Below, in pieces: positions 3,513 to 42,812 of a stretch of 64,000 bases of DNA; the first letter of the stretch is position 1; each line of letters opens with the position of its first letter. The position numbers and the translations under genes are program-made. The notes under the pieces are model-generated. The model saw only the letters and a program-made list of their open reading frames with translations, was not told where the DNA came from and ran no database searches. This DNA comes from Verrucomicrobiia bacterium (GTDB lineage: Bacteria; Verrucomicrobiota; Verrucomicrobiia; Verrucomicrobiales; Akkermansiaceae): assembly GCA_030431475.1 (NCBI GenBank), contig JAUIJD010000023.1, positions 1-64,000 on the forward strand. The letters are read 5' to 3'.

Positions 3513-3543
3513 TCCGGAGATGGGATGCCCTAGCGTTTGCATC

Positions 3544-3813
3544 GTGCCCGACTCCTTCCACCCGGCGCTGGACCACGCCCGCCGTGCCCGCCCCGCCCCG
3601 CTGCCCCGCGATTTCGCCGATCGCGTGCTGCGCCAGGCCGCCCGGCAGGTCGAGCGGCTCCCGGCCATCGCGAGCCGCTCCGGCATGATGACCACCGCGA
3701 TCGCCGCCGTGACCGCCGCCGCGCTCGTCGCCTGGGCCGCCGACCGGCCCGCGCCTTCCGCAGAGCCGCCCGCGCTCGGCTCCTTCTCCACCCCTCTTCT
3801 CGCGTCCCCGTGA
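3544..3813 (+). CDS. Small single-TM protein, CnrY-like anti-sigma candidate
   Basis: About 89 aa from GTG 3544; short cytoplasmic N-terminus and one TM (MMTTAIAAVTAAALVAWAA); stop overlaps start of the next gene (GTGA). Confidence 0.5.
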   Translation: MPDSFHPALDHARRARPAPLPRDFADRVLRQAARQVERLPAIASRSGMMTTAIAAVTAAALVAWAADRPAPSAEPPALGSFSTPLLASP

Positions 3814-4244
3814 CCCGGCCCGCCGCCCTCGGCCTCTGGGCCCTCGCCACCGTGGCCCTCGCCGCCGCCACCAGCTTCCTCGTCCTCCGCTGGCACGCCC
3901 CGGCCGACGCGGCTCCGCCCGACTTCCACCACTGGATGCACGAGCAACTCGAGCTCACCGCTGCCCAGCACGATGCCCTCGCCCCGGCCGAACAGCGCTT
4001 CGAGGAAAGCCGCCGCAAGCTGGAGGCACGCATCGCGAACGCCGGCCGCGCCCTCGCCACCGCGATCCGCCATGAAAAGCCCGGCTCTCCGGAGATCGAT
4101 GCCGCCCTCCAGCAGCTTCATGCCGCCCAGGCGGAACTCCAGCGCGCCACCCTTCACCACTTCTTCGAAATGAAGGAGCAACTGGACCCCGAACAGTCCG
4201 AGAAGCTCCTCGAATGGACCCATGATCGGCTCATCCATCCCTAG
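3810..4244 (+). CDS. Periplasmic metal-sensor protein, CnrX-like
   Basis: N-terminal TM then HHWMHEQL...QRATLHHFFEMKEQLDPEQ; spacing HxxxH and HxxxM matches CnrX metal ligands as I recall them. Confidence 0.7.
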   Translation: MTRPAALGLWALATVALAAATSFLVLRWHAPADAAPPDFHHWMHEQLELTAAQHDALAPAEQRFEESRRKLEARIANAGRALATAIRHEKPGSPEIDAALQQLHAAQAELQRATLHHFFEMKEQLDPEQSEKLLEWTHDRLIHP

Positions 4245-4812
4245 TCCGGCATCGGTCCCGGCCACCCCGACCCCCGACGAGCTTCGGGAGGCCGCCGACA
4301 TCGCCGCCGCCCGCGGCGGCTGCGACGATGCCTTCCGGGCGCTCGTCGAGCGCCACCAGCACCGCATCCACCGCCTCTGCTTCCACTACCTCGGCAACGA
4401 GGCCGACGCGGTCGAGGCCTGCCAGGATACCTTCGTCCGCGCCCACCGCGCCCTGCCCCGTTTCCAACCCCGGGCGCGACTCTCGACCTGGCTGCACCGG
4501 ATCGCCCTGAACCTCTGCCGCGACCGGATCCGCCGCCGCCGCCCCACGATCGCCCTCGACGACCTGGATTTCCCCTGCGAAGGCGCGTCTCCCGACGAGG
4601 CCGCCATCCGCGAGGCCGACCTCGCCAAGCTCGACCGCGCCCTCGCCACGCTGCCCGCCCGGCTCCGTGACGTGGTCGTGCTGAGCTGTCTCGAAGGCCT
4701 GAGCCACGCCGAGTGCGCCGCCATCCTCAAGTGCGGCGAACGCGCGATCGAGGGCCGGCTCTATCGTGCCCGCCAGCGCCTCGCCGTCTGGTGGGCGAAG
4801 GCTGAGGCTTGA
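4222..4812 (+). CDS. ECF-type RNA polymerase sigma factor (CnrH-like position)
   Basis: Sigma-70 region 2 (ACQDTFVRAHRALPRFQPRARLSTWLHRIALNLCRDRIRRRR) and region 4 (LPARLRDVVVLSCLEGLSHAECAAILKCGERAIEGRLYRARQRL). Confidence 0.9.
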   Translation: MIGSSIPSPASVPATPTPDELREAADIAAARGGCDDAFRALVERHQHRIHRLCFHYLGNEADAVEACQDTFVRAHRALPRFQPRARLSTWLHRIALNLCRDRIRRRRPTIALDDLDFPCEGASPDEAAIREADLAKLDRALATLPARLRDVVVLSCLEGLSHAECAAILKCGERAIEGRLYRARQRLAVWWAKAEA

Positions 4813-4817
4813 GCGCC

Positions 4818-5014
4818 TTTGAAGTGCGGAGGCCTTGTCCGTCGAAGCTTCCGCGAAGTCGGATGCCACCGCTTTTCGGGCGACGTGCGGTGAATCGTGA
4901 AGCAAACGTCCCGCCTGAAGCGAACGAGCGCTTTGCCGGCGTGGCGATGATCTCCGGTTCTGCGATACCGGTCGGGTCGTTCCCAAAGCGGTGGCAAGCC
5001 ACCGCACTCCAAAA
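4818..5014. repeat. Intergenic inverted-repeat element (AGTGCGG..GCCACCGC type)
   Basis: Right end (reverse complement) TTTTGGAGTGCGGTGGCTTGCCACCGCTTT; left end TTTGAAGTGCGGAGGCCTTG...TGCCACCGCTTTT, an imperfect match with an insertion. Confidence 0.6.
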
Positions 5015-5052
5015 AATCCGTGGGATCTCCGGCTCCCCCGCGTTTCATCAGT

Positions 5053-7110
5053 GTGAATCGCTCCACCCTGCTGCTTCTCGCGCTCACCCTCCCGTCCTTC
5101 TCCCAGGAATCCGCCGACTCCGTCCTCGGCTCGCTCGATCCCCTGATCATCACCGGCAAGGCCGAAAACCTCCTCGGTCAGGCCCGAACCGCCTCGAAGG
5201 GCCAGTCCGACCGAGACGAACTCCTGGAGCGCCCCTACCTCCGCCGCGGCGAGCTGCTCGAGGTGGTGCCCGGCCTGATCGCCACCCAGCACTCCGGCGA
5301 CGGCAAGGCGAACCAGTATTTTGTCCGCGGCTACAATCTCGACCACGGCACCGACTTCGGGCTCTTCGTCGATGGCATGCCGGCCAACTACCGCGCCCAC
5401 GGCCACGGCCAGGGATACGCCGACATCAATTTCCTCATCCCCGAGTTCGTCGAGCGCCTCGACTACCAGAAAGGCCCCTTCGACCCCCGGCTCGGCGACC
5501 TCACCACCGCCGGCGCCGCCGAGTTCTCGCTGGTCAACCAGCTCGACCGCGGTTTCGCCCAGTTCACCCTCGGCGAGGACGCCTTCTACCGCACCGTCTT
5601 CGGCCACTCGGTCGAGGCCGGCGGCGGCGTCCTCACCTACGGCGGCGAGGCTCAGTTCTACGACGGCCCCTGGGTGCTCGACGGCGATTCACACCGCTAC
5701 AACGGCATCATCCGCTGGCACACCGGCGACGACGAGAATTTCTTCAACCTCACCTTCCTCGCCTCGCAAGGTGAGTGGACCTCCACCGACCAGGTCCCCG
5801 AACGCGCCATCTCCAGCGGCCTCATCGACCGACTCGGCTTCATCGATCCGACCGTCGGCGGCGACTCGCAGCGCTACTCGCTGTCGATGAACTGGGGCCG
5901 GCGCTGCGACGACGTCGTCTGGCGCGCCAACGCCTACGTCGGCTACTACGACCTCGATCTCTACTCGAACTTCACCTACTTCCTCGACGATCCCGTCAAC
6001 GGCGACCAGTTCCGCCAGTCCGACCAGCGCGTCTTCTTCGGCGGGGAAATCAGCGCCACCTTCGAGGACCGCAGCCTGTTCGGCGCGGAGACCGACTACA
6101 CCCTCGGCTTCCAGACTCGCAACGACCTCATCTGGGATCTCGAGCTCGCCCGCACCGCCAACCGCTTCGACGTCAACCCGATCCGCTCGGACGATGTTTT
6201 CACCGGCAACTACTCCGTCTTCGTCGGCGCGGAAACGGTGTGGAACGACTGGTTCCGCACTCAGGCCGGCCTGCGGGGCGACCTGTTCTACTTCGACGTC
6301 GACAGCGACCTGCCGGTCAACAGCGGCGACGAATGGGACGGCATCGTCGTGCCCAAGCTCAACCTCATCTTCGGACCGTGGAACGACACCGAGTACTACC
6401 TGAACCTCGGCGGCGGCTTCCACTCCAACGACGCTCGCGGCCTCTTCACCACCATCGACCCCAACGACGGCGTCACGCCGGTCCGCCCGGTCGACCCGCT
6501 GGTCCGCACCTGGGGCGCGGAGCTCGGTGCCCGCACCCAGTGGAACGACTGCCTCACCACCACCGCCGCCGTGTGGTGGCTCCACAACGACTCCGAACTG
6601 CTCTACGTCGGCGACGCCGGCAACGTCGAGGCGGGCCCCGACACCACCCGCTACGGCGTCGAGCTCGCCGCCTACTGGCGTCCGACCGACTGGTTCGCCT
6701 TCGACGCCGAGTTCGCCTGGTCCGAGGGCCGCTACGATGACATCTGGTTCCCCGGCGGTCCCTACATCGAGAATCAGGTCCCGATCGTGCTCTCCACCGG
6801 TCTCACCTTCGGCCGCGACACCGGATGGTTCGGCGCCCTGCGGGCCCGCTACTTCTCCGAGCGCCCCCTCACCGCCACCGCCGGGGTCAATGCCGAGGAC
6901 TCGCTGCAGGTCAACGCCCGCCTCGGCTACCGCTGGGAGAACTGCGAGGTCGCGCTCGACTGCCTCAACCTCCTCGACCGCGCCGACAACGACATCGAGT
7001 ACTACTACACCTCGCGGCTCCCCGGCGAACCCGCCGCCGGCATCGACGACGTCCACCTCCACCCGACCGAGCCGCGCACCCTCCGCGCCACCGTCACCTG
7101 GTTCTTCTGA
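5053..7110 (+). CDS. TonB-dependent receptor
   Basis: Signal peptide, plug domain (LEVVPGLIATQHSGDGKANQYFVRGYNLDHGTDFGLFVDGMP), beta-barrel and C-terminal aromatic residue (TVTWFF). Confidence 0.93.
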   Translation: MNRSTLLLLALTLPSFSQESADSVLGSLDPLIITGKAENLLGQARTASKGQSDRDELLERPYLRRGELLEVVPGLIATQHSGDGKANQYFVRGYNLDHGTDFGLFVDGMPANYRAHGHGQGYADINFLIPEFVERLDYQKGPFDPRLGDLTTAGAAEFSLVNQLDRGFAQFTLGEDAFYRTVFGHSVEAGGGVLTYGGEAQFYDGPWVLDGDSHRYNGIIRWHTGDDENFFNLTFLASQGEWTSTDQVPERAISSGLIDRLGFIDPTVGGDSQRYSLSMNWGRRCDDVVWRANAYVGYYDLDLYSNFTYFLDDPVNGDQFRQSDQRVFFGGEISATFEDRSLFGAETDYTLGFQTRNDLIWDLELARTANRFDVNPIRSDDVFTGNYSVFVGAETVWNDWFRTQAGLRGDLFYFDVDSDLPVNSGDEWDGIVVPKLNLIFGPWNDTEYYLNLGGGFHSNDARGLFTTIDPNDGVTPVRPVDPLVRTWGAELGARTQWNDCLTTTAAVWWLHNDSELLYVGDAGNVEAGPDTTRYGVELAAYWRPTDWFAFDAEFAWSEGRYDDIWFPGGPYIENQVPIVLSTGLTFGRDTGWFGALRARYFSERPLTATAGVNAEDSLQVNARLGYRWENCEVALDCLNLLDRADNDIEYYYTSRLPGEPAAGIDDVHLHPTEPRTLRATVTWFF

Positions 7111-7116
7111 AGGTGG

Positions 7117-7159
7117 CTGCGGCATCCTGCCGCAGGCCGTCACGGCGGCTTCCAGCCGC
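7117..7159. repeat. Two short palindromes after the TonB receptor stop
   Basis: CTGCGGCATCCTGCCGCAG and GCGGCTTCCAGCCGC. Confidence 0.5.
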
Positions 7160-7197
7160 TGCTTGACGCCTCCCCCATGCCCGCCTAAACGACCGCC

Positions 7198-7596
7198 GTG
7201 CGTCTCCTGCGCATCATCCTGGTCCTCGGCGCCTTCGTTCATCTGAGCGGTGGTCACTACGGCGTGCTGCAGGGCATCGCCTGGGCGACGATGCTGGTGC
7301 AGTATTCCGCCGCCGACGGCCTCGTCGAGGGCGCCCGCAAGACCTTCGACGGCGACCATCCGTGTGAGATGTGCCGCTCGATCGCCTCCGCGAAACAGCA
7401 GGAATCCCAGCGGGAGCCCTCCCTCCCCGCCACCGGCATCGAGAAGCTTTCCCTGAAGGACCTGCGCCCCCCGGAACCGATCGCACTCCGGCACCCCCGG
7501 GCCCGTGACCACGGAAACGCGTCCTTCATTTCCCCGGATCCGATCGGCGGGCTGGCCGGCGCGCGCCCCCCTCTCCCTCCGCCGCGAGGCGTCTGA
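7198..7596 (+). CDS. Conserved small membrane protein with CxxC motif
   Basis: GTG start; N-terminal hydrophobic segment; DHPCEMCRSIASAKQQE; located between TonB receptor and OMP. Confidence 0.55.
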   Translation: MRLLRIILVLGAFVHLSGGHYGVLQGIAWATMLVQYSAADGLVEGARKTFDGDHPCEMCRSIASAKQQESQREPSLPATGIEKLSLKDLRPPEPIALRHPRARDHGNASFISPDPIGGLAGARPPLPPPRGV

Positions 7597-7843
7597 GGCA
7601 TTCCCATCGGCGCGAACTTGACGCGCACTCCATCCCCGCTCGAGCGGCCATCCCGGCCGTGCTCGTCGTCCGGGGCTGGCTCCGGGACGCGCGACGCCGT
7701 CGCGTCCGTCCCGTCCTCGAGGCCGGTTCCACCCGGCGCCCGATCACTCCGCACGGTCCGCCAACCTGCTCCGTTCCACGGTGCCAGGCCCGCGCCCGTC
7801 CCGCGGCGACGCCGCATTCCCATTCCAACCATTTCCCATTTCA

Positions 7844-8917
7844 ATGAAGACTCTAACAACCATTCTGTTCGCCATCCTCCTCCAGCCCGTGTTCGCCGTC
7901 TGCGAATGCGAACCCTACTGCACCTGCGGCCACGGCCCCGGGGGCCCGATCTCGCTCATGGGCGACCACACCCACGACGCCGGAGAGTGGATGCTCTCCT
8001 ACCGCTACATGTCCATGGACATGGACGGCATGTACCGCGGCTCCGACGCGGTCTCGGCCGGACAGGTCTTCGGCGCCGGCTATGTCGTCAGCCCCCGCCG
8101 CATGACCATGGACATGCACATGCTCGGGCTCATGTATGCCCCGACCGACGACCTCACCCTCATGGCCATGCTCCCCCACACCAGCATGGAGATGAGCCAC
8201 GAGATCGACCCGGCCGCCGGCATGCTGGTCATGCTCAACGGGGGAAGCCGCTACTTCACCACCGAATCGAGCGGCATCGGCGACCTCAAGTTCAGTGCGC
8301 TGATCGATCTCCATGAAGACGGCGCCCATCACCTCCATGGCGGCATCGGCATCAGCCTGCCCACCGGATCGATCGGCGAAAGGGACCTCGTCCCCGGCCC
8401 CGGCGGACGCCTTTCGCGCCAGCTCCCGGCCGCGATGCAGCTCGGCTCGGGCAGCATCGACCTCCTGCCGTCGCTCACCTACCGCTACCACGGCGAAGGC
8501 TGGTCGGCCGGCGTCCAGGCGGCCGGCATCTACCGGACCCAGACCAACTGGCACAACTACCGCCTCGGCCACCGCTTCGATCTCAACACCTGGGTCTCGT
8601 GGGTTCCCCGTGAATGGGTCTCCCTCAGCGGCGGCCTCGCCTACCGCTGGGAGGACGAAATGGCCGGCCTGCAGACCGACCTGCTCCTGCGTCCGCCCTT
8701 CGCCCCGGCCCGGCTCACCGTGCCCACCGCCTTCGCCATGAACTACGGCGGCCAGCGCATCGAGGCCATCGTCGGCGTGAACTTCCTCATCCCCGAAGGC
8801 CCGCTCGAGGGCAACCGCTTCGGCGTCGATGTCCGCCTGCCCCTCTGGCAGGACGTGAACGGCTACCGCCTCGGCACCGACATCACCGTCACCGGCGGCT
8901 GGCGCTACTCGTTCTGA
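7844..8917 (+). CDS. Met/His/Cys-rich outer-membrane transporter-like protein (possibly the phenol MetA-pathway OMP family)
   Basis: Signal peptide, CECEPYCTCGHGPG, HTHDAGEWMLSYRYMSMDMDGMYRG, RRMTMDMHMLGLMYA, barrel-like C-terminus ending in F. Confidence 0.6.
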   Translation: MKTLTTILFAILLQPVFAVCECEPYCTCGHGPGGPISLMGDHTHDAGEWMLSYRYMSMDMDGMYRGSDAVSAGQVFGAGYVVSPRRMTMDMHMLGLMYAPTDDLTLMAMLPHTSMEMSHEIDPAAGMLVMLNGGSRYFTTESSGIGDLKFSALIDLHEDGAHHLHGGIGISLPTGSIGERDLVPGPGGRLSRQLPAAMQLGSGSIDLLPSLTYRYHGEGWSAGVQAAGIYRTQTNWHNYRLGHRFDLNTWVSWVPREWVSLSGGLAYRWEDEMAGLQTDLLLRPPFAPARLTVPTAFAMNYGGQRIEAIVGVNFLIPEGPLEGNRFGVDVRLPLWQDVNGYRLGTDITVTGGWRYSF

Positions 8918-42738: not shown

Positions 42739-42812
42739 GCGCCCGTAGCTCAGTTGGATAGAGCACCCGCCTTCTAAGCGGATGGTCGCTGGTTCGAATC
42801 CAGCCGGGCGTG
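42739..42812 (+). tRNA. tRNA-Arg (anticodon UCU)
   Basis: Cloverleaf GCGCCCG TA GCTC AGTTGGATA GAGC A CCCGC CTTCTAA GCGGA TGGTC GCTGG TTCGAAT CCAGC CGGGCGT G; 3' CCA not encoded. Confidence 0.93.

Follow-up and report, generated by a model that had tools for sequence, protein, structure and literature searches.

Among periplasmic metal sensors that serve resistance, CnrYXH is the textbook case. In the cnrYXH-cnrCBA determinant of Cupriavidus metallidurans plasmid pMOL28, the output of this module is the CnrCBA efflux pump. A module with the same gene order, overlaps, gene sizes, CnrX fold and five metal ligands as cnr and ncc lies in a 64,000-nt stretch of a 4.7-Mb genome of the Verrucomicrobiota (the window, to which all coordinates refer). 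No resistance-nodulation-division (RND) efflux genes (cnrCBA) follow it, so the locus is not a resistance determinant of the cnr kind. Here the three genes, termed Y, X and H, are followed by a gene for a TonB-dependent outer-membrane receptor, which is predicted to import nickel or cobalt. We consider it likely that a trans-envelope relay of the CnrYXH type, rewired from efflux, controls metal import at this locus.

Several other described systems share parts of this arrangement. YXH modules with the same sensor ligands are found in other Verrucomicrobiota (L045, L047, L049 and L052–L054) and in Sphingomonas (L208), and several of them have the promoter core described below. The outputs of these resistance loci are TolC/CusB/RND or CopA/CopB, and their sigma factors fall outside the clade linked to TonB receptors. 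Relatives of the receptor are found in proteobacteria, for example on C. necator pHG1 and Afipia pHCG3, where they are tied to control by NikR or a riboswitch; no examined plasmid locus has an adjoining YXH. In FecIRA, an extracytoplasmic function (ECF) sigma factor and a membrane anti-sigma factor likewise control a TonB receptor, probably by its substrate. In contrast to FecIRA, the signalling domain of the receptor is absent here, and the signal would come from a free periplasmic metal sensor.

The features of the locus are as follows.

3544–3813, + strand: Y, GTG start, 89 aa with one transmembrane segment; putative anti-sigma factor whose position, size and topology resemble those of CnrY
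3810–4244, + strand: X, GTG start, 144 aa plus stop; periplasmic metal sensor of the CnrX type with an N-terminal membrane anchor
4222–4812, + strand: H, ATG start, 196 aa; ECF sigma factor, CnrH-like
5019–5046, + strand: predicted H-dependent promoter, CGTGGGAT (about -35), N14, CGTTTC (-10)
5053–7110, + strand: TonB-dependent outer-membrane receptor, GTG start; Plug domain, no N-terminal STN domain; predicted nickel/cobalt family

Y and X overlap in the sequence GTGA, and X and H overlap by 23 nt. The same overlapping Y-X-H order is seen again in 12 copies across the genus and is therefore not due to chance. An earlier note on this DNA had compared the three overlapping genes to cnrY-cnrX-cnrH, and both the open reading frames (ORFs) and their arrangement hold. 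The 89 residues that it gave for Y are also correct, but its 145 residues for the sensor include the stop codon. An alternative in-frame ATG for Y at 3520 would make the protein 8 aa longer. A named relative is Verrucomicrobiaceae bacterium E54, in which X is about 60% identical and the receptor 88% identical. In this strain an MISL RNA (RF03079) is found directly 5′ of the YXH operon (L059, 7626–8518).

Sequence, ligands and fold all identify X as a CnrX. It matches the Pfam family PF13801 (Metal_resist, E=6e-17), and among PDB sequences it matches CnrX (3zg1, E=2.4e-15, and 2y39, E=3.7e-15) and NccX (4clv, E=1.6e-13). The earlier note had taken the HxxxH and HxxxM spacing of the sensor for the Ni/Co ligands of CnrX. 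The motifs concerned, HHWMH and HFFEM, do align with H42/H46 and H119/M123 of CnrX, and E63 is kept too; the ligands H40, H44, E61, H117 and M121 of X thus correspond to H42, H46, E63, H119 and M123. All five are invariant in 22 of 22 aligned homologs, whether these are linked to TonB, RND or copper genes. The AlphaFold (AF2) model of X has a predicted local distance difference test (pLDDT) score of 92.2, and its top PDB matches in Foldseek are Ni-bound CnrX structures, with a TM-score of 0.83–0.84 over the CnrX chain and a root-mean-square deviation of about 2 (2.1). A sensor lacking the CnrX fold or metal site, which the earlier note had listed as speaking against its reading, is therefore not what the model and the alignment show. 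A plasmid search with X gave no match, though CnrX as the query finds many, and a single-sequence scan of genome contigs with the sensor returned one locus, that of E54.

The third gene had been read as an ECF sigma factor, and its sequence bears this out. Regions 2 and 4 are both present (PF04542, E=3e-20; PF08281, E=2e-14), and H is 35% identical to CnrH (E=3e-24). It also matches the CnrH structure 4cxf (E=2.6e-19), although SigE and SigW outscore CnrH among the structures. The H proteins linked to TonB receptors fall into a single, long-branched clade (99/98). Y is a putative anti-sigma factor on the grounds of its position, size, single transmembrane segment and frame overlap, features that would suit a class II protein of the CnrY type wrapped around H. 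It is intact in 11 of the 12 genus loci, and its stop overlaps the start of X in the loci examined. In 10 aligned genus copies, R13, P17, LP20–21 and F24 of the cytoplasmic part are invariant, as is a PP..F tail. A resemblance of 16 C-terminal residues between Y and CnrY (E=0.43) is suggestive only, and the two proteins are not alignable overall. The likeness to CnrY that had been claimed for this gene therefore holds for position, size and layout and not for sequence.

The link between the module and the receptor lies in the DNA between them. The H-TonB intergenic region is poorly conserved in the genus except for one block, TTTTYCCRTGGGAT-N13-TCGTTYCA-N4/5-GTG. The element TCCGTGGGAT-N13-TCGTTTCA stands directly 5′ of the start codon of every such receptor in the genus with the exception of one extra receptor copy, in G308, which lacks it. 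Its spacing is constant in 11 aligned loci, in which the two blocks carry 1.25 and 1.45 bits per column compared with 0.29 for the spacer and 0.24 for the DNA upstream, and G388 provides a twelfth TonB gene with the element at the same spacing. The element was not found at the TonB genes of genera without YXH. In the 4.7-Mb genome, the exact sequence CGTGGGAT-N12-18-CGTTTC occurs once, at 5019–5046. Other exact matches in the genus are consistent with chance, and those that were checked are not followed by a suitable gene start at a fitting distance.

The element resembles the promoters recognized by CnrH. On pMOL28, the cnr promoters are GGGA-N14-CGTA 5′ of cnrY and GGGA-N15-CGTA 5′ of cnrC. 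CnrH transcripts start 24/25 nt 5′ of cnrY/cnrC (PMC9045368), which is 7 nt after CGTATA. When this distance is applied to CGTTTC, transcription is predicted to begin at 5053, where the GTG start codon of the receptor gene also begins. The receptor mRNA is accordingly predicted, by analogy, to be leaderless, a difference from cnr. The core GGGA-N14/15-CGT and the start distance are common to both systems, and the -10 element is CGTATA in cnr and CGTTTC here. In the wider form GGGA-N14-16-CGT(A/T), the core is found at both pMOL28 cnr genes, both YXH-linked genes of Sphingomonas and four other verrucomicrobial YXH loci; the chance of finding it is about 0.017 per 160-nt upstream region. In cnr a CnrH-type promoter also precedes cnrY. 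Such an element is absent 5′ of Y in all 12 genus loci, so that self-amplification, unlike in cnr, is not expected and the module is a variant in this respect. The promoter that the earlier note had thought might be shared by 3544 and 5053 is thus present before 5053 and, as a CnrH-type element, missing before 3544. A weak TAG(C/G)CT-like hexamer 7–9 nt 5′ of the start of Y (about 3531–3536 in the window) was seen by eye to recur in the genus, which suggests that YXH is transcribed without a leader from another promoter, perhaps a housekeeping one.

The receptor gene itself encodes a Plug domain (Pfam, E=3e-11) that starts at residue 52. The coupling of the module to a TonB receptor in place of RND efflux, as read in the earlier note, is supported. 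The AF2 model (pLDDT 86.6) consists of a plug and a barrel with no extra N-terminal domain, and neither Pfam nor the model gives an STN signalling domain. A PDB sequence search with the receptor gave no match; the model resembles TonB receptors in general (PqqU/YncD, FecA and OprC), which does not fix the substrate. Among the matches listed, the receptor has 39–45% identity to proteobacterial plasmid receptors in alignments that cover at least 92% of its length, and it shares with them the conserved His residues H80, H98, H118, H457 and H670. Twelve proteobacterial loci were read for neighbours within 6 kb of the receptor, and eight hold NikR, HoxN, [NiFe] hydrogenase or cobalamin genes. NikR is found in five (Afipia, Methylomagnum, Paraburkholderia, Polymorphobacter and Novosphingobium), HoxN in three (C. 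necator pHG1, Paraburkholderia and Bradyrhizobium), [NiFe] hydrogenase genes in three and cobalamin biosynthesis genes in one. In our judgement, eight of 12 exceeds by far the expectation for such rare genes. A HupE/UreJ permease also adjoins the receptor of a verrucomicrobial relative (L121). These neighbours lead to the prediction that the receptor is a nickel/cobalt importer. The import role, for which the earlier note had no evidence, is thereby given some by the relatives of the receptor. The same prediction was made for this receptor type by Rodionov and Schauer, as cited in PMC2773004, where the type of Daro_1684 and META2_0097 is discussed, and it is also found in PMC7689651.

The enzyme content of the genus suggests that nickel is preferred over cobalt as the substrate. 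Of the 12 genomes that bear the receptor, 10 have urease or [NiFe] hydrogenase, whereas CobN is found in one of the 18 genus genomes. One [NiFe] hydrogenase gene is present in the genome of the window, in which neither urease nor CobN was found. An Rfam scan of the window found no B12 riboswitch or other RNA 5′ of the receptor, the sole match being a tRNA at 42739.

In the mechanism that we propose, Y would hold H at the inner membrane. X would bind periplasmic Ni(II) or Co(II) through H40, H44, E61, H117 and M121, and this would change the contact between Y and H. Freed H would direct RNA polymerase to one promoter, 5019–5046, and the receptor gene would be transcribed from its own start codon as a leaderless mRNA. 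The relay very probably switches on the downstream receptor gene. If the sign and the metal are as in CnrX, periplasmic metal would turn the receptor on, a form of substrate-induced import that might be held in check because YXH does not amplify itself. On balance we favour the view that a metal importer is the only detectable genomic target of the relay, either as substrate-induced import of free metal without receptor signalling or through a reversed CnrX. Either reading, if true, would be a new use of CnrYXH.

Several observations weigh against the proposed mechanism. For nickel, it would be unusual to induce an importer once the metal has reached the periplasm, and related receptor genes, which have NikR boxes or lie close to NikR, are probably repressed by nickel. 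Four of the 12 proteobacterial contexts have no nickel or cobalt gene within 6 kb, and the genome of the window lacks a NicO permease. Urease or hydrogenase is also present in three of the six genomes without the receptor, which makes the enzyme content a weak guide. Near-identical sensor sites also adjoin copper genes, and the metal can therefore not be read from the ligands by themselves. Finally, Y has no Pfam or PDB match and no significant match to CnrY.

The first of these points would be met if the sign were reversed, with metal-bound X tightening the Y-H lock and metal-free X freeing H, such that the receptor is made under nickel or cobalt scarcity. We hold this to be a real though doubtful possibility. 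Import genes are normally induced by scarcity, and the long branch of the TonB-linked sigma clade is compatible with changed behaviour. Homologous receptor genes have NikR boxes or a NikR gene nearby, and since the scanned TonB loci of the genus contain no relevant NikR box (one unrelated site was seen in L042), the module may replace NikR. However, we know of no inverted member of the CnrYXH family. X also keeps all of the CnrX ligands, including the counterpart of Met123, which is needed for signalling in CnrX, where metal binding frees CnrH (PMC7689651). A reversed CnrX, if true, would mean a change of sign with the metal site unchanged. The locus is a clean natural experiment on whether X or the contact between Y, X and H sets the direction of signalling.

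It is unlikely that the relay senses copper and the receptor imports a copper complex, nickel and cobalt having been wrongly deduced from distant relatives. CnrX can bind copper (3epv), YXH adjoins copper genes on a Sphingomonas plasmid and in the verrucomicrobial locus L047, and one relative (L128) has a CusF-like gene 3′ of the receptor. The contexts of the receptor's own relatives point the other way, with nickel, hydrogenase or cobalamin genes in eight of 12 and the HupE/UreJ permease in L121, and no copper-receptor TonB model is among the NCBIfam matches.

Across the genus, 12 readable copies of YXH were found, and TonB lies directly 3′ of H in nine of them (with an extra ORF between in one). 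In a tenth case, G391, the end of H precedes TonB at a contig edge, and in G388 and G396 the two are separated. L039 (G308:C4) is a decaying second copy with a stop codon inside Y and TonB truncated near its start; G308 also has a full-length receptor gene elsewhere, at a distance of about 130 kb. H and the receptor are present together in 12 of 18 genus genomes and both absent in six, and the flanks of the YXH-TonB unit vary from genome to genome. The YXH copies of G388 and G396, which have no adjoining TonB, could be taken to mean that YXH is a mere travelling neighbour and the element an operator for another regulator or an ordinary promoter. This is improbable, however, for the detached receptors of both genomes keep the element and YXH is still present in both. 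The spacing, core and start distance of the element match CnrH promoters, and it is unique in the genome of the window.

Of 388 Verrucomicrobiota genomes sampled, 32 have homologs of X. Outside the genus, YXH in this phylum adjoins TolC, CusB or RND genes, or a multicopper oxidase and CopB, and judged by these neighbours its outputs are ordinary resistance. The earlier note was correct that the module lies in a different phylum, but this is less striking than it implied, since ordinary YXH-RND and YXH-copper loci exist in Verrucomicrobiota. On plasmid pR1b of Sphingomonas sp. R1 (L208), YXH is flanked by copC/copD on one side and by copA/copB-type genes on the other, and GGGA-N15-CGTA elements stand 5′ of Y and 3′ of H. 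The presence of a CnrX-like sensor among copper genes indicates that the module has been swapped between metals.

The locus is best described as a CnrYXH variant whose output is of a new kind. Gene order, fold, ligands, sigma factor and promoter core agree with cnr, and autoregulation is the one tested feature that does not. In the open literature, subscription journals not being covered, we found no paper on a CnrH-type sigma factor controlling a TonB receptor or import. The apparent wiring of YXH, through a matching promoter, to a predicted nickel/cobalt receptor in most genus genomes indicates that the module is reusable for acquisition, and outer-membrane uptake of nickel or cobalt would gain a further control circuit beside NikR and the B12 riboswitch. 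The regulon would be a simple one of one gene, and the promoter rule GGGA-N15-CGT may reveal targets of such sigma factors across phyla.

Two neighbours downstream of the receptor are judged to be outside the system.

7198–7596, + strand: small CxxC protein, first gene of a CxxC-OMP pair
7847–8917, + strand: Met/His-rich outer-membrane protein (OMP), second gene of the pair

The earlier note had included both genes in the locus. They are consecutive with YXH and TonB on the same strand, and CxxC-like small proteins lie near the receptor in other families, but it is very unlikely that YXH drives TonB, the CxxC protein and the OMP as one regulon. Neither gene is preceded by a CnrH-type element, and the pair is absent from the other YXH loci of the genus. 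In G278 the pair and YXH-TonB are on different contigs. The sister genome G320 (L136) has neither YXH nor TonB, and there LOG is followed by CxxC and OMP with a short intergenic stretch between LOG and CxxC, and further on by a response regulator, in the same order as in the window. Because the genes between are missing in G320, the locus had been drawn too wide; given this arrangement between the same flanks, the YXH-TonB unit was evidently either inserted into an older gene neighbourhood or lost from it.

Cell-surface signalling of the FecIRA type, in which the receptor itself would signal to the anti-sigma factor, accords with the adjacency of sigma factor, anti-sigma factor and TonB receptor and would make the receptor substrate-induced, but it is ruled out by its defining feature, since the receptor lacks an STN domain, sensing falls to a separate CnrX protein, and Pfam finds no FecR-type protein in Y, X or the scanned neighbours.

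The CxxC-OMP pair is a conserved two-gene unit in many Verrucomicrobiota and is found elsewhere without YXH-TonB. It occurs in the window (7198–8917) and in L136, L137, L139, L143, L145 and L149, and of 376 Verrucomicrobiota genomes 42 carry the OMP, for the most part irrespective of whether YXH-TonB is present. Neither protein has a Pfam or NCBIfam match; W29, M32, C56, C59 and PP128–129 of the CxxC protein are invariant. In other families, small membrane proteins are found near the nickel/cobalt TonB receptor (L120, L121, L123, L124, L127, L128 and L130). Some of these are clearly related to the CxxC protein, which suggests an uncharacterised receptor-associated protein near the nickel/cobalt TonB receptor.

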